NCBI GenBank assembly: GCA_007693325.1 | Contig: REDW01000077.1 | Span: forward strand, 1 to 64,000 | DNA length: 64,000 nt | Reading direction: 5' to 3' | Source of the DNA: Spirochaetaceae bacterium | GTDB lineage: Bacteria > Spirochaetota > Spirochaetia > DSM-27196 > PWMO01 | Position numbers and translations under genes: made by a program | Shown: piece by piece, positions 1-6,003 of the stretch | Layout: each line of letters begins with the position of its first letter | Numbering within the stretch: the stretch's first letter is position 1 | The notes under the pieces: model-generated | The model's input: only the letters and a program-made list of their open reading frames with translations | The model's database searches: none | Told to the model about the DNA's origin: nothing

Positions 1-2326
1 GCTGGCCGGCTGCGCCTGGAATCTGAACGATAGTGACCAGCTCGGAAGCCTGACAATCAATCTTGGCGAAGGCGACGGCATCGGAGTGCTCAACCTGGCA
101 GGCACCTTCGACGAAGTGACGTTCTTCGTTGTAGAAGCCGAACATTTCCGACGTTCGGGGCGTACGGTTCGCGTTGGACCAGGCGGAAACCCCGACGACA
201 TGCGCTCAAATCTGCTGGCACAGAATCTGCACGCCGCGGTGGCGTTTGCAGGTGTAGAAGCAGTTGAGGTAAATCCGGGCGTGACGAACGAAGCGCAGAA
301 TATAGCGGTACCCGGCGGCAGTGCGAAGTCCTATGTGTTTGCTGTCAACGAAAGCCCGCCACAGTTTTCGAGCGTGCAGTTCGATAACCTTGTAGTTGGA
401 ACAGAATACGTCGTGTGGGCCGACGCTCTGCCTTGGGAAGGCCCGCCGCGCCTCGGCTTCGGGACCGTCCGTGTCCGCTCTGGTTCGGATTCATCGGTTT
501 CGATCAATCTGACCGACGATCGTTTTCCGCAGTTTGTAGACCTTCTCTACAGCAGCTACGTTGAACCATCCCTGCAGCCGATCAATCTGGCCGAGTTCAG
601 TTCTGTACTCTACGCCGGGGTGGGCTCCGCAGATATCTCCATTATTGACGCGGGCTCCGGTCTGGCGGAGTTCGTTGGCGCCGTGGACTACGATAGTGTT
701 ATGGTCGGACGCTTTGAGTTCCCCGAAGAGAACGTAACGCTGTTCTTTCTGCTGTTCTTTGAAGCAGGCGCCGGAGAACAGCCCGGCCTGGTGGTATCTC
801 TGATCGAGCACGACGGAGTGCTCGAACCTGCCCGTACGTCGTACAGTCTGGCACTGTTTGATCCCGAGTCACCGACGTTTATCCCGACCGGAACGATTGG
901 CGGTGTCGACGGTTTCCTCGAGCCGGAAGGTGCGGTGGACTTCCACATGGATTTCGATCCGCTCGATCCACCGATTCTCGACCAGGCCGGTTTTGCCGCA
1001 GGCGGACCCAGCGATGGGGGCACCTTCAGTCTGGGCATATCAGGTTCCGGATACCTCGAATACCAGGATTTCGGCGACGGTCCGATCGCGGCAGAGATCA
1101 CCGTTGCAGATCTCTCATTCACCTTCGGCCCGGTGCTGGAGACCTTTGAAGGCATCGAGTTCGAATACGACAGCCCGATTGGCGATCCTGAGCGTGAAGA
1201 TGATCCTCTGTTCAGCGCGGGCAGTCTCAGCGGACAAAGCCTGGCAACCGGATTCTTTCATTCAGCCGTGATCGATGAATCAGGCGCACTCTGGGGCTGG
1301 GGTGGCAACGACGGCTGGTACGAACTGGGATTCGATATTGCGCCGGCACAGCCTGCCGCCGTGCCAACCGGTGAGCTGAACGGCGCCGTTTCGGTAGCCG
1401 CCGGCGACTCCTGGACCCTATTTGCACTGGAGGACGGTACCGTGTGGGGCCTGGGTGGCAATAGCTACGAGACTCTCGGCGTGGAGGATCCGAATGCAAG
1501 TCTGGAAGAGCCACAACAGATCCCCAATCTGGGCTCGGTAACCCGCCTCGAGAGCGACTTCTTCCAGGTGTACGCCTTGACTGAGCAGGGCAATGTCTAC
1601 AGCTGGGGACTGGATTTTGACTACCTGCTTGCACGCGATCTCGGGCTGACACCCAACTACGAGCCGGGTCAGATTACGGGCAACGGATTCGAAAGTGCCG
1701 AAATCGTTGCGATCGCGGCCGGGGAGATGTTAGGTGCAGCAGTCGACGTGCAAGGTGGTCTCTGGCTCTGGGGAGACAACAGAAACGGTCTGTTAGGACT
1801 GCCGCTGCTGGATTTCACCACGCGTCCGGAGCAGCTTGAAGTTGTAGATGAGAACCAGAATCCGGTCTATTTCGTCGACGTGGCAGCAGGACGACATCAC
1901 ATCGTGGCTATGGCTTCCGACGGTACACTCTACGCGTGGGGCCGCAACAACGAGGGCCAGCTGGGCTTGGGAGACTCAACCGACCGGACGGAGCCTGAGG
2001 CTATCCAGGGACTCGGCCCGGTTGCGTCCGTGGAGGCGGGCCTCAACACAAGCTTCGCGATCGACGGCGCCGGCCAGGCGTGGAGCTGGGGCCATAACGG
2101 CAACGGAAAGCTCGGTCAGGGTATCTTTGAAGAGACCGCTACGGTCGAGCAACCAGAGCAGATTTCCGAACTGCCGGCGGTGGTTGAAATAGCCTCGTGG
2201 TATACTCACGTGTTGGCCATGGATAGCAGCGGCAATATCTGGTCATGGGGTGCAAACTACAACAACCAGCTGGGACGCGATGTGGAAGACTACAGTCCTG
2301 TGCCCGGGTTGGTGGAGTTCGACTGA
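1..2326 (+). CDS. Lipoprotein with C-terminal RCC1 beta-propeller repeats (5' end outside window)
   Basis: The reading frame is open from base 2, and the first codons read LAGC, a lipobox, so only the start codon and the first part of the signal peptide are missing. The lipidated Cys implies membrane anchoring. The N-terminal half closely matches the next gene (shared EVTFFVV, VPGGSA, YVVW, DRFPQFVDLLY, TIGGVDGF and FTFGPVLE stretches). From about nt 1230 onward there are some seven RCC1-type repeats with the pattern aaG..h..al...G.vw.WG.N..gqLG, enough for one seven-bladed propeller, probably a ligand or protein-binding surface. No catalytic motif was seen. The family of the N-terminal half is not recognised. 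The gene is followed by a hairpin at 2335-2373. Confidence 0.85.
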   Translation, partial: LAGCAWNLNDSDQLGSLTINLGEGDGIGVLNLAGTFDEVTFFVVEAEHFRRSGRTVRVGPGGNPDDMRSNLLAQNLHAAVAFAGVEAVEVNPGVTNEAQNIAVPGGSAKSYVFAVNESPPQFSSVQFDNLVVGTEYVVWADALPWEGPPRLGFGTVRVRSGSDSSVSINLTDDRFPQFVDLLYSSYVEPSLQPINLAEFSSVLYAGVGSADISIIDAGSGLAEFVGAVDYDSVMVGRFEFPEENVTLFFLLFFEAGAGEQPGLVVSLIEHDGVLEPARTSYSLALFDPESPTFIPTGTIGGVDGFLEPEGAVDFHMDFDPLDPPILDQAGFAAGGPSDGGTFSLGISGSGYLEYQDFGDGPIAAEITVADLSFTFGPVLETFEGIEFEYDSPIGDPEREDDPLFSAGSLSGQSLATGFFHSAVIDESGALWGWGGNDGWYELGFDIAPAQPAAVPTGELNGAVSVAAGDSWTLFALEDGTVWGLGGNSYETLGVEDPNASLEEPQQIPNLGSVTRLESDFFQVYALTEQGNVYSWGLDFDYLLARDLGLTPNYEPGQITGNGFESAEIVAIAAGEMLGAAVDVQGGLWLWGDNRNGLLGLPLLDFTTRPEQLEVVDENQNPVYFVDVAAGRHHIVAMASDGTLYAWGRNNEGQLGLGDSTDRTEPEAIQGLGPVASVEAGLNTSFAIDGAGQAWSWGHNGNGKLGQGIFEETATVEQPEQISELPAVVEIASWYTHVLAMDSSGNIWSWGANYNNQLGRDVEDYSPVPGLVEFD

Positions 2327-2334
2327 GCGTGCAT

Positions 2335-2373
2335 CAGAAGCGCAGCCGGCTGAAAGCCTGAGCTGCGCTTCTG
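2335..2373 (+). terminator. Stem-loop after the RCC1 lipoprotein gene
   Basis: A perfect 12-bp inverted repeat (2335-2346 with 2362-2373, core AGAAGCGCAGC) with a 15-nt loop begins 9 nt after the stop codon. It lacks a T-run, so it could be a weak terminator or a 3'-end stabiliser. Confidence 0.5.
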
Positions 2374-2694
2374 CATTGGAATGCGATATAGCATACTTTT
2401 GCGGTAGGTTATATCGGTCCGAATGGTGTATACTTTCTCTGTCCTACACAACAGGCGCATACCGTGCGTCTGCCCGTGGACGCTGTTACTTCTGGGATGC
2501 TTCTGTGGTATTCCCGCCTCCGGTGTTATCCAACCCGCCGGCGCGAGCACCTGGAACATCGGGCTTGTCTGCCTGGGCGACACGCGGATCGTAACGGTCC
2601 GTGGCCGCGTATTCAAGGTCGATCGACTGGCTTTGCTCCAGCCGCGCGCGTCATAACGACGCACGGTGATCACTGAAAACAGGAGGGGTGCCAC
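2374..2694. other. Intergenic region between the lipoprotein paralogues
   Basis: About 320 bp separate the stem-loop from the next start. It contains AT-richer patches with -10-like boxes (TATACT near 2428) but no convincing -35. A 77-codon frame at 2423-2656 has a hydrophobic stretch but no ribosome-binding site. The leader of the downstream lipoprotein probably lies here. Confidence 0.4.
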
Positions 2695-4302
2695 ATGAGT
2701 TCCCCAATCTCCCCTATGGCGAGTTCGTATAGCCGCCCCCGACACGTGGGAACGGCCCTTGCAGTAGCGAGTCTGGTAGTGCTCCTCATGGCCGGCTGTG
2801 CCTGGGATCTCGATGGCAGCCGAAATGCCGGAAGCCTTACTATCAGTTTTGGTAGTGCCTCGGGCATCGGCACGCTCGATCTCGGTGACGCGTTCGAGGA
2901 GGTAACCTTCTTTGTGGTAGATGCGGACCATTTCCGCAAAGGTGGCCGTACCATTCGGCTGGGACCAAACGGAGATTCTTTCAATGAAGGCCCGCCGCTG
3001 CGCAGTCAGTTTCTTGAGACAGATATCGTACTATCCAGCGAATTTGCGCTTCAAACGATCGACGTCATTGACAGTGATCAAACGATTGCAGTGCCCGGCG
3101 GAAGCGCTCGCTACATCGGCGCAAATGCAATCTTCGGCGTATCGTCAGTAGCGTTTGAGAGGTTAATAGTAGGCAAAGAGTACGTGGTGTGGGTTGACGC
3201 TATTGCATGGGCCGACAACGGTGCAGGCGGGCAACGCCTCGGCTTTGGCACTGTGCGTATCCGTTCGGGGGCGCCATCGAGCATCACCATTGACCTGACT
3301 CAGGATCGCTTCCCACAGTTTGTGGACTTGCTCTACAACAGCTACGTCAAGCCGTTCCTGAAGCCGGTGGACCTGGCGCAGTTCAGCACAATTCTCTACG
3401 CCGGTGCGGGCTCGGCCAGCGTGACCGTTGATGATGGATTTGAACCGTGGTTTGACAGCCCCAGCTACAACCGGGCGCTCGTTGCCAGACTTGCCTTTCC
3501 TGAAGCCGACGCCAGCATATTCTTTCTGGTGTTCTATGACGAGTTTGACGAGTTTGGTGGTGACGCGAGCCTGGTAGTCTATCTCTTTGAACAGTCCGGG
3601 GTACTCGAGCCGAGCCGCACCTCGTACGGGCTTGCGCTGTTTGATCCGGATTCAATGGAGTTCAGCTGGCCGGCCGGCACAATTGGCGGTGTCGACGGTT
3701 TCCTTGACGACGGCCCCGAATTCTTTATGGAGTTTCTGACCACCGATCCACCGCTGCTGACGCAGGCCGGATTCAGTGGTGGCGCCCCGAGCAGCGGCGG
3801 AACCTTTGGACTGTCCATCAGCGGCCCCGGGTTCATCTACGGAGAAGGCGAGGTTCCCGCTACCATCGAAATCAACGGGCTGAACTTCACCTTCGGCCCG
3901 GTTCTCGAAGTGTTTGAAGGATTCGAGTTTGATGGTGATTTCAGCTTCCGCGAGCCGCAGGAGTTTGTCGTCGAAGATCCGATCGACTGGTACACCGCGC
4001 TCGACGATCTGGAATACGACGAAATTCTGCCTTCTCTGGTAGTGGGTGATCTGGTCACCGTTACCCTTGGGCCTGCACCGGCCGGTTACGCCGACGTTGC
4101 AACGCTCTGGGGTGAGGACATCTACACGGATGACTCCGAAATTGGCGGCGCCGCCGTGCACGCCGGGGTTCTGACGCTGGCGGGAGGAACGGTAACGCTG
4201 GAGGTACTCCCCGGCGAGGATAGCTACCCGGGTACAACCAGTAACGGCATTACCTCAGAGGAGTGGGATCAGTGGTACCGCAGCTACCGGTTTGTGGAGT
4301 GA
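2695..4302 (+). CDS. Lipoprotein paralogue with C-terminal LCCL-like domain
   Basis: The 535-residue product starts at ATG 2695 behind a strong AGGAGGGG site. Signal peptide of about 36 residues ends in lipobox LMAGC. Residues about 35-430 are a diverged copy of the preceding gene product. The C-terminal 110 residues differ. They carry WGEDIYTDDSEIGGAAVHAG, then a GG turn, SYPGTTSNGITS and a final aromatic strand, which is the recognisable pattern of the LCCL fold (WG..vY.ddS.i..AAvHAG). LCCL domains are best known from animal extracellular proteins but occur in bacteria, where they are thought to bind lipid or polysaccharide. The usual LCCL cysteines are absent. The likely location is the outer face of a membrane. 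Confidence 0.82.
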   Translation: MSSPISPMASSYSRPRHVGTALAVASLVVLLMAGCAWDLDGSRNAGSLTISFGSASGIGTLDLGDAFEEVTFFVVDADHFRKGGRTIRLGPNGDSFNEGPPLRSQFLETDIVLSSEFALQTIDVIDSDQTIAVPGGSARYIGANAIFGVSSVAFERLIVGKEYVVWVDAIAWADNGAGGQRLGFGTVRIRSGAPSSITIDLTQDRFPQFVDLLYNSYVKPFLKPVDLAQFSTILYAGAGSASVTVDDGFEPWFDSPSYNRALVARLAFPEADASIFFLVFYDEFDEFGGDASLVVYLFEQSGVLEPSRTSYGLALFDPDSMEFSWPAGTIGGVDGFLDDGPEFFMEFLTTDPPLLTQAGFSGGAPSSGGTFGLSISGPGFIYGEGEVPATIEINGLNFTFGPVLEVFEGFEFDGDFSFREPQEFVVEDPIDWYTALDDLEYDEILPSLVVGDLVTVTLGPAPAGYADVATLWGEDIYTDDSEIGGAAVHAGVLTLAGGTVTLEVLPGEDSYPGTTSNGITSEEWDQWYRSYRFVE

Positions 4303-4311
4303 GCCGGCAGG

Positions 4312-4944
4312 CTACGCGCTAATCGGGACACCAATATGGCTGTGGGCATTGAGGTACCACATCATCGTAGCGTGATCGCGAAACTCCAGATGCGAGATTC
4401 CGCAGTTGTACATTCGCAGCCAGTTGGTCTCGACCTGGCGACGCGAGAACCCCAGCGCTACTGAAATCAGATAGCCGGAGAAATGGGCATGAGTCACCAG
4501 CGCTACCGTACCAGAACCGTTTGGATACTCAGCACGCAGCGAGCGCAACACGCGCTGCGCCCGCTGGTAGAGCTCATCGCCGGACTCTTCGTTACGCTCG
4601 CGGGCCCAGCCGCTGTCGGGGGCAAACTCAGGGCCAACGCGCAGGCCGGGGCAGAGTTGGGCCATTTCACGGCCGCTGAGGCCGGGATCGTCATAGAGCC
4701 AGTTGCGCTCGCAGATGTCAGAGCGCACAATCGGGGTCAGCCGGAGCGCTTTGCTCAGGATACCGGCTGTCTCCAGTGTGCGCCTGGTTGGGCTGACGTA
4801 GAGCGTATCAATAGGGATATCCGCGAGTGCCTCAGCGGTGGCCTGCGCCTGGTGAACGCCCAGTTCTGTAAGCCCGCGATCACCGGCCTGGATTGCTTCA
4901 GCGTTATCTTTGGATTGCCCGTGGCGAATAATGTAGAGTTTCAT
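4312..4944 (-). CDS. Histidine phosphatase superfamily protein
   Basis: A 210-residue protein beginning MKLYIIRHGQS, the RHG phosphohistidine motif of the phosphoglycerate mutase/acid phosphatase clan. Other conserved elements are LTELG..QA, a YVSPTRRTLETA arginine segment, and the second histidine in ALVTHAHF. The frame is open 50 codons further upstream, but ATG 4944 is chosen because the superfamily motif starts there and a TTGGCC-N17-TATACT promoter sits with its -10 box 8 nt before it. No Shine-Dalgarno is present, suggesting a leaderless message. The substrate cannot be told; cofactor-independent small-phosphoester phosphatase activity is most likely. Confidence 0.85.
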   Translation of the reverse strand: MKLYIIRHGQSKDNAEAIQAGDRGLTELGVHQAQATAEALADIPIDTLYVSPTRRTLETAGILSKALRLTPIVRSDICERNWLYDDPGLSGREMAQLCPGLRVGPEFAPDSGWARERNEESGDELYQRAQRVLRSLRAEYPNGSGTVALVTHAHFSGYLISVALGFSRRQVETNWLRMYNCGISHLEFRDHATMMWYLNAHSHIGVPISA

Positions 4945-4952
4945 CGCTTTAG

Positions 4953-4981
4953 AGTATAGCCGAATACGCCGCCGGGGCCAA
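4953..4981 (-). promoter_or_regulatory. Sigma-70-type promoter of the histidine phosphatase gene
   Basis: On the minus strand: TTGGCC (4976-4981), 17-nt spacer, TATACT (4953-4958). Only 8 nt separate the -10 box from the ATG, so transcription should begin at or within two bases of the start codon. Confidence 0.65.
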
Positions 4982-5039
4982 TCGGCCGCGGGTCCGCGGC
5001 GGGAGCGTTGCGCCGTCTGAGCACTTACCCTCCGCATCA

Positions 5040-5078
5040 TACTTGAAAAATGGAAGACTGTCTTCCATTTTTCAAGTA
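5040..5078. repeat. 39-bp perfect palindrome
   Basis: Arms 5040-5058 and 5060-5078 are perfectly complementary over 19 bp (core TTGAAAAATGGAAGAC) around a single central T. It lies 17 bp after the fpg stop and upstream of the phosphatase promoter. It could be a terminator for fpg (a run of T lies inside the stem), a binding site for a dimeric regulator, or a cruciform. No second copy was noticed in the window. Confidence 0.7.
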
Positions 5079-5094
5079 CAATACCGAGGGGCAC

Positions 5095-5967
5095 TCACAA
5101 TTCAGGCGCGGGCTGGCAGCGCGGGCAGAAGTGTGTCGAGCGCTGCGCCACCACAATGCGCTGGATCGGTGTGGCACATTGCCTGCACGGCAGGCCGGTA
5201 CGTCGAAAGACGCGTAACGCCTGCTGGTTGCCGCCCGACGCACCGTTGGGCAGACGGAAATTGCTGTGGCCGTTGCCCAGACTGACGCCGAGGTTGGCCA
5301 GCCCCTGCCGCAAAACCCGCTGGATTGCGTTGTGCAGTACAGCAACCTCGGCTGCTGTCAGCGAATCGGCGCGCCGCAGCGGATGCAGGCGCGCGCAGAA
5401 CAGCGCTTCGTCAACATAGATGTTGCCCAGCCCCGCGATCACCCCCTGGTCCAGCAGTGTCGGCTTGAGCGCGCGCCGACGGCCGCCCAGCACTGCCCCC
5501 AGTACCTCAGCTGTGAAATCCTGCGCCAGCGGCTCGGGGCCCAGCTTATCGAGCATCAACGCCGGGTTGGTACTCAACAGAAAACGGCCGAACTTGCGCG
5601 GATCCACAAAGCGCAGCTCTCGCCCGGATGCGCACTGCAGCACCAGCCGCTCGTAGCCCCCACGCGGCTCGGCGGGACCCACCAGGTGCAAGCGGCCGCT
5701 CATGCGCAGGTGGCAGATCGCCCACAACCGGGCAGGCCCGTGGCCTCCAGCGCCGGCGCCGGCGCCGTCGTGCAGCGCACAGATGATATACTTGCCGCGA
5801 CGTGCCAGCGCAGCTATGCGCCGCCCGCGGATTGCCGCGGCAAACGCGGTGCTGTCTCCGCCTACGGTGCGCGGCCAGCCCACCTCGGCAGCAACGATCT
5901 GCTCACCGATAATGCCCGAGGCAATCAGATTATCAATGGTGGTCTGGACTTCAGGTAGTTCCGGCAT
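5095..5967 (-). CDS. mutM: Formamidopyrimidine-DNA glycosylase
   Basis: A 290-residue bifunctional glycosylase/AP lyase that removes 8-oxoguanine and FapyG. The sequence starts MPELPEVQT, so Pro2 is the Schiff-base nucleophile and Glu3 the general acid. The beta-hairpin lysine segment RRGKYI, the helix-two-turn-helix region with GLGNIYVDEALF, and a C-terminal zinc finger (CRQC...CPRC) are all present, so the enzyme should be active. Length is typical. The start lacks a ribosome-binding site. A TATACT box 8 nt upstream, with TTGCGG 16 nt further, suggests leaderless expression. Confidence 0.95.
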   Translation of the reverse strand: MPELPEVQTTIDNLIASGIIGEQIVAAEVGWPRTVGGDSTAFAAAIRGRRIAALARRGKYIICALHDGAGAGAGGHGPARLWAICHLRMSGRLHLVGPAEPRGGYERLVLQCASGRELRFVDPRKFGRFLLSTNPALMLDKLGPEPLAQDFTAEVLGAVLGGRRRALKPTLLDQGVIAGLGNIYVDEALFCARLHPLRRADSLTAAEVAVLHNAIQRVLRQGLANLGVSLGNGHSNFRLPNGASGGNQQALRVFRRTGLPCRQCATPIQRIVVAQRSTHFCPRCQPAPEL

Positions 5968-5975
5968 TCAAACGC

Positions 5976-6003
5976 AGTATACCCATCCGCACGAGGTCCG
6001 CAA
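5976..6003 (-). promoter_or_regulatory. Promoter of mutM
   Basis: Minus strand TTGCGG (5998-6003), 16-nt spacer, TATACT (5976-5981), then 8 nt to ATG. It follows the terminator of the upstream transporter operon directly. Confidence 0.6.

Follow-up and report, generated by a model that had tools for sequence, protein, structure and literature searches.

The 64,000-nucleotide window analysed here, from a Spirochaetaceae bacterium (GCA_007693325.1, contig REDW01000077.1), starts at base 1 of a contig, termed C147 below, in an assembly of 150 contigs (3.47 Mb). Its first 4,302 bases carry two tandem genes whose products share one base region and end in entirely different C-terminal domains (Table 1). 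With a probability of about 0.6, we read them as paralogues that encode envelope lipoproteins and belong to a head-swapping family, in which exchangeable recognition heads would serve attachment or signalling. The base regions of proteins 1 and 2 are identical at 206 of 418 positions (49%, E 1e-118), and the similarity stops at about residue 403 in protein 1 and 430 in protein 2. Neither Pfam nor NCBIfam matched this shared region at E values up to 10, a search of the PDB by sequence with the base profile gave a best E of 0.12, and the profile itself matches in 9 of the 46 genomes of the order. The lipoprotein character was read from the sequence by eye, here and in the relatives discussed below: protein 2 has a hydrophobic leader followed by LVVLLMAGC-AW, and protein 1 shows LAGC-AW at its cut start.

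The head of gene 1 contains PF00415 (RCC1 repeat) in seven stretches (E 1.1e-47), scores 229 bits with the RCC1-like domain PF25390 (cut-off 150, E 1.3e-67), and matches UVR8, HERC2, and RCC1 chains. The head of gene 2 is recognized by the LCCL model PF03815 (56.7 bits, cut-off 22.6, E 2.8e-15) over residues 467-530, which correspond to model positions 32-95 of 96, and it has a match to 1jbi, the solved LCCL domain of cochlin (E 1.3e-9). Disulfide cysteines are found in the LCCL domain of cochlin; the head of gene 2 is cysteine-free. It resembles cochlin, akhirin, CRISPLD2, and the bacterial LCCL proteins of Spirochaetota in this core and in the 1jbi match, and it differs from them in sitting on a lipoprotein-like base that no Pfam model describes and in lacking cysteines, as do about half of the sampled copies in the phylum. 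A first-pass annotation, made from the sequence alone, had described about 400 shared but unrecognized residues followed by complete divergence, with seven RCC1 repeats in one gene and a cysteine-free LCCL-like domain in the other, and these observations hold throughout. As a side observation, the LCCL head (4093-4284) also exceeds the Pfam cut-off for Rxt3 (36.7 versus 29.9 bits) and matches the solved Rxt3 chain 8i03 (E 5.1e-5), so that eukaryotic Rxt3 may contain an LCCL-like domain.

The same annotation had called both modules better known from eukaryotes; the distribution of the domains does not sustain the hint that they are oddities here. Of 392 sampled genomes of the Spirochaetota, 29 have LCCL (the sample was drawn from a larger group, and the LCCL-bearing genome G005, introduced below, is not among its matches), and so do two of the seven genomes of the family. 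Within the order, RCC1 repeats (E ≤1e-6) occur in 10 of the 46 genomes and Lcl_C (E ≤0.001), the third kind of head considered here, in 37. A eukaryotic origin of the heads is thus unsupported, since each of the two domains is common at the level of phylum or order. Cysteines were counted in 28 of the 29 loci L026-L054, over the core of about 71 residues only and hence not for all LCCL matches; they were absent from 19 of 34 cores and at 13 of 28 loci, and are therefore not defining for LCCL in bacteria. Cysteine loss as a special feature was rejected because cysteine-free LCCL domains are about as common in the sample as cysteine-bearing ones. The parts are ordinary; of interest is how the heads are mounted. 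The open-licence literature contained no bacterial LCCL protein recognizable by title or abstract start among the matches listed; the one match on LCCL together with RCC1 in bacteria concerns Plasmodium, and the one on LCCL in spirochaetes is unrelated by title.

The modular family of a common base with different heads, which had been proposed from the pair, is borne out and extends beyond it, with RCC1, LCCL, Lcl_C-like, and headless members. A look for further paralogues upstream of base 1 had been suggested. The contig ends there, but a search of the whole assembly yielded one more base paralogue (C114:1-1092, minus strand, 44% identity), which ends at the contig edge ahead of its head. A related metagenome-assembled genome, DLM2.Bin48 (G005, contig C57, locus L005), carries in order a barrel-like gene, a FecR-domain gene, a base with an Lcl_C-like head, and a base with an LCCL head, after which follow genes resembling the window's phosphoglycerate-mutase-type phosphatase and Fpg genes (both the gene names and the match were judged by eye). 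The C114 base is closest to that of the G005 gene with the Lcl_C-like head (61% identity in the N-terminal domain, 75% in the middle one) and, like it, comes after barrel-like and FecR genes, so the missing C114 head is predicted to be Lcl_C-like. We infer that C114 and C147 are the two sides of a single array, the gap between them containing an Lcl_C-like head. In a midpoint-rooted tree of eight bases, the LCCL copy of the window pairs with the LCCL copy of G005 (97/96) and the RCC1 copy of the window joins next (100/99). Given this topology, the RCC1 and LCCL copies probably diverged before the two genomes did, and the RCC1 copy, which the G005 array lacks, probably existed before the genomes separated.

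Other genomes carry the base in further states. An Lcl_C or Lcl_C-like head is mounted on it in G003, G004, and G023 as well as in G005; in G003 (cut at its start) and G004 the Lcl_C domain scores 36.8 bits each, above the Pfam cut-off of 34.9, and the base lacks the middle domain. The bases of G006 and G026 are headless. The only PDB match by sequence of the G005 Lcl_C-like head is 8q4e, HbP1 (E 3.8e-5). A diversity-generating retroelement acting on this kind of head was considered and rejected: the last 240 bases of the G005 gene, the one query compared with three genomes, had no close second copy that could be a template repeat, the best other match being 75% over 98 bases in a G000 gene of formylglycine-generating-enzyme/Lcl_C-like type, with the rest weaker. 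Separately, a 516-codon frame on G000:C133 (L084) has a lipoprotein-like leader and a domain that resembles formylglycine-generating enzyme by eye, apparently fused to an Lcl_C-like end.

Heads are also exchanged beyond the family. The RCC1 head of gene 1 is 48% identical over 368 residues to the head of a lipoprotein-like protein of G018 (L075:4831-6495, minus strand), a genome from a different family of the order, whereas the other RCC1 proteins compared reach at most 31% in alignments over 350 columns (one RCC1 locus was used per genome with RCC1 in the order search, not all RCC1 proteins). The G018 protein shares with protein 1 this propeller and a lipoprotein-like leader and is unlike it in its short, different base, and comparison of the two N-terminal domains by hhalign gave no support for a common origin. 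Related heads therefore sit on two different bases. Within 9.5 kb around the G018 gene, no barrel or FecR gene was found. RCC1 repeats were also seen in a 1029-codon frame of G005:C37 (L055), which has many of them behind another N-terminal region that looks Ig-like by eye.

The gene order around C114 and in G005 recurs widely. The profile of the barrel-like gene matches 41 of the 46 genomes of the order at one to several places each, and the genome of the window has five such places on five contigs. A FecR-domain gene directly follows the barrel-like gene in all 26 loci examined (20 selected among the barrel-profile matches and 6 collected earlier, 4 of the 26 being CHASE2-linked), and FecR PF04773 was above its cut-off in all four loci tested by protein scan. 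Three loci (L124, L131, and L135) end inside FecR. Among the 23 that extend past it, the next gene is a same-strand lipoprotein-like gene in 18, a convergent lipoprotein-like gene in 1, a convergent CHASE2 gene in 2, and in the remaining 2 a GGEEF-motif frame on the other strand precedes a CHASE2 gene. The lipoproteins of this module vary. One copy, G000:C31 (L119:101-4706), has barrel-like and FecR genes followed by two tandem lipoprotein-like genes (425 and 413 amino acids, 42% identical) with sub-threshold beta-propeller matches; those of G000:C68 and G005:C6 form a pair of 498 and 501 amino acids (64% identical); of the others, one has a sub-threshold Big_1 match and short ones are without a recognized head. 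At G000:C68 (L120), the barrel-like gene lies in two overlapping frames, which may be a frameshift or an assembly error. Barrel-like and FecR genes lie directly upstream of the third paralogue on C114; for the two window genes, the same arrangement hinges on the join of C114 and C147. Such a neighbourhood points to a component of some envelope assembly and less to an adhesin acting by itself.

A head-swapping envelope lipoprotein of this family would consist of a lipid-anchored base of about 400 residues, built from an N-terminal domain and a middle domain that some relatives lack, and of a C-terminal head exchanged among an RCC1 propeller, LCCL, an Lcl_C-like domain, or none. Observed directly are the shared base, the different heads, the third paralogue, the matching array in G005, and the gene order in relatives and at C114. 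At the outer membrane, the base may dock on the barrel-like protein and the FecR-domain protein or work with them, while the heads, predicted to be exposed at the surface, would face outward and bind polysaccharide or protein ligands. Duplication of the base gene and subsequent head replacement would then turn one platform into several, each recognizing another ligand.

Several points weigh against this picture. The structure models are poor, with a mean pLDDT (predicted local distance difference test) of 48.5 for the base and 54.9 for the LCCL head. With the low-confidence base model, Foldseek returned a best E of 4e-3 (microsomal triglyceride transfer protein) and nothing at ≤0.001. For the middle domain (residues 193-377) of the same model, compared with TbpB/LpqH-type barrel lipoproteins, LpqH (Z 7.4 and 7.1; root-mean-square deviation 3.8 and 3.5; 109 and 106 aligned residues) and TbpB (Z 6.4; 4.3; 114 aligned) stand at the top of the VIA list, yet under the level that the tool calls distinctive. 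Both the heads and the bases have a strong acidic character (net charge -9.8 to -17.1 per 100 residues), which is at odds with glycosaminoglycan binding through basic patches like those of Lcl. The Lcl_C scores of G005 (22.8) and G023 (25.5) fall below the cut-off. The link between C114 and C147 rests on synteny with G005:C57, and the 64-kb window contains no barrel or FecR gene by profile; as the contig ends ahead of gene 1, the module neighbourhood of the two window genes has to be deduced. The label barrel was given because of an aromatic C-terminal end and a match to Alginate_exp, a family that is above its cut-off in 1 of 14 copies scanned (26.6 bits versus 25.2) and weak in two more. Moreover, 2 of the 18 lipoprotein-like genes after FecR fail the lipobox pattern (L122 and L125), and that of L127 lies outside the scanned stretch. 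Finally, no common family could be detected for the lipoproteins found in different copies of the module, which restricts the notion of one common base to the present subfamily.

Among the alternatives, the likeliest holds that the proteins are sensory input subunits, in which the head binds a ligand, the barrel and FecR proteins relay the signal across the periplasm, and an inner-membrane CHASE2 cyclase makes a second messenger; we regard this as possible, though doubtful. It draws on gene linkage, as 22 barrel/CHASE2 pairs less than 5 kb apart were found in 21 of the 41 barrel-bearing genomes, where a rough density estimate predicts about 0.7. The count covers 85 barrel matches (second gene pieces excluded) and most CHASE2 matches (second pieces and weak ones excluded). 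Sixteen of the 22 pairs are divergent with match ends less than 1 kb apart, and the linked loci include G015:C1:258640-260992, G006:C204, and G037:C238. CHASE2 is present in all 46 genomes of the order; its gene adjoins FecR in G022 and G024, and follows a GGEEF-motif frame after FecR in G007 and G008. We take the GGEEF motif of these frames to be diguanylate cyclase-like. At L130 and L132, the GGEEF-motif frame between the FecR and CHASE2 genes lies on the opposite strand. The combined CHASE2 and cyclase architecture was confirmed by Pfam in one locus (L130), elsewhere the CHASE2 match stands alone. FecR genes beside a CHASE2 histidine kinase are published for Burkholderiales and Pseudomonas aeruginosa (PMC5192318). 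The BiofilmReg operon described there likewise encodes a secreted FecR-domain protein (LysM/FecR) with a CHASE2 sensor and is unlike the present loci in having a response regulator, a kinase, and a DUF4136 protein, where we find head-swapping lipoproteins together with a barrel-like gene and, in some of the relatives, also CHASE2 genes.

In the genome of the window itself, this linkage was not seen. Neither C147 nor C114 nor any further contig with a barrel gene in its fragmented assembly had a CHASE2 match, and no CHASE2 gene stands beside FecR as in known FecR-CHASE2 signalling units. The 16 divergent CHASE2-linked barrels are low-scoring (62-170 bits, compared with 714 bits for the barrel on C114). 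Furthermore, no lipoprotein gene lies behind FecR in the four loci where signalling genes follow it. A more far-reaching version, of about the same low probability, would be a multi-copy, as yet undescribed spirochaete envelope signalling system, in which an outer-membrane barrel, a soluble FecR relay, and a lipoprotein with an exchangeable head (RCC1, LCCL, Lcl_C, or other propellers) feed CHASE2-domain cyclases. If true, swapping a head would redirect a second-messenger pathway towards an external ligand that is new to it. No paper in the open-licence literature joined CHASE2 and adenylate cyclase in spirochaetes. We treat the signalling reading as a lead, not a result.

The proteins might instead be periplasmic scaffold or assembly lipoproteins of the barrel, with the heads making protein-protein contacts inside the envelope, which appears rather unlikely. 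The recurrent barrel-like and FecR neighbourhood and the existence of headless members would fit such a role; the variety of the heads, which are of kinds known from extracellular proteins, and the occurrence of a related head on unrelated bases argue against it.

Adhesins for sulfated polysaccharide, similar to Legionella Lcl, are improbable. Lcl (PF07603) is comparable as a surface protein with a C-terminal Lcl_C domain, the kind of head found on the base in four genomes. This domain binds sulfated glycosaminoglycans according to PMC11162425, and PMC12839204 reports that the akhirin LCCL domain binds bacteria and cites sulfated-glycosaminoglycan binding by that of cochlin. Lcl further consists of a helix at its N-terminus and a region resembling collagen (PMC11162425), unlike the window genes with their RCC1 and LCCL heads. 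These heads contain zero to one Lys and few Arg, and nothing comparable was found for RCC1. Their strong negative charge argues against glycosaminoglycan binding through a basic patch of the Lcl type and suggests other ligands, or binding that depends on metal or salt. A polymorphic-toxin-like system is very improbable: it shows the same outward logic of a common N-terminus and exchanged C-termini (PMC3482391), but the ends exchanged here are RCC1 and LCCL, and no toxin domain in the Pfam and NCBIfam scans and no PADLOC match was obtained for the window genes, immunity genes not having been searched for.

Read as head-swapping envelope lipoproteins, the family displays head exchange on a fixed anchor in several states (headless, with a single head, and as a tandem array with different heads) across related genomes, and is a tractable case of envelope proteins gaining new specificities. 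The tie to the FecR gene and to the barrel-like gene, which is widespread in the order, together with the repeated CHASE2 linkage of the barrel family, offers a function that can be tested for genes largely undescribed in Pfam.

Table 1. Features at the start of the window, in window positions.
Feature	Position	Strand	Remarks
Gene 1, predicted lipoprotein, base and RCC1 head	2..2326	+	774 codons present, start beyond contig end; lipobox-like LAGC at codons 1-4 by eye
Gene 1, shared base	2..1210	+	residues 1-403; N-terminal domain, then middle domain; pairwise comparison with gene 2
Gene 1, RCC1 head	1211..2323	+	residues 404-774; seven RCC1 stretches; profile matches; acidic, net -43
Perfect 12-bp inverted repeat	2335..2373	+	arms 2335-2346 and 2362-2373; 8 bases past gene 1 stop codon
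GGAGG, ribosome-binding-site-like	2682..2686	+	8 bases ahead of ATG 2695; read from sequence
Gene 2, predicted lipoprotein, base and LCCL head	2695..4302	+	535 amino acids; open reading frame and profile matches
Gene 2, leader peptide	2695..2796	+	read from sequence; cysteine residue 35 at 2797-2799
Gene 2, shared base	2797..3984	+	residues 35-430; pairwise comparison, tree of bases
Gene 2, head region	3985..4299	+	LCCL match 4093-4284 (residues 467-530); no cysteine; net -18

The start codon of gene 1 is missing because the window opens at the first base of the contig. Downstream of this gene, the fold of 2320-2385 is more stable than expected (z -3.75, with 0 of 200 shuffles equally stable) and forms a hairpin without a T run; the inverted repeat is possibly a terminator or an RNA-stabilizing hairpin. 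Given this hairpin and the GGAGG before gene 2, the two genes may be separate transcripts. The gap between them (2327-2694) holds nothing but short mechanical frames, promoter and terminator scans of 1-4500 gave no excess over shuffles, and an Rfam search of 1-6000 found nothing reaching the gathering threshold. In the PHROGs database, gene 2 was without a match, and gene 1 had matches to three phage families that bear the name regulator of chromosome condensation (the best at 6e-27), besides a weak one to a family of tail proteins.

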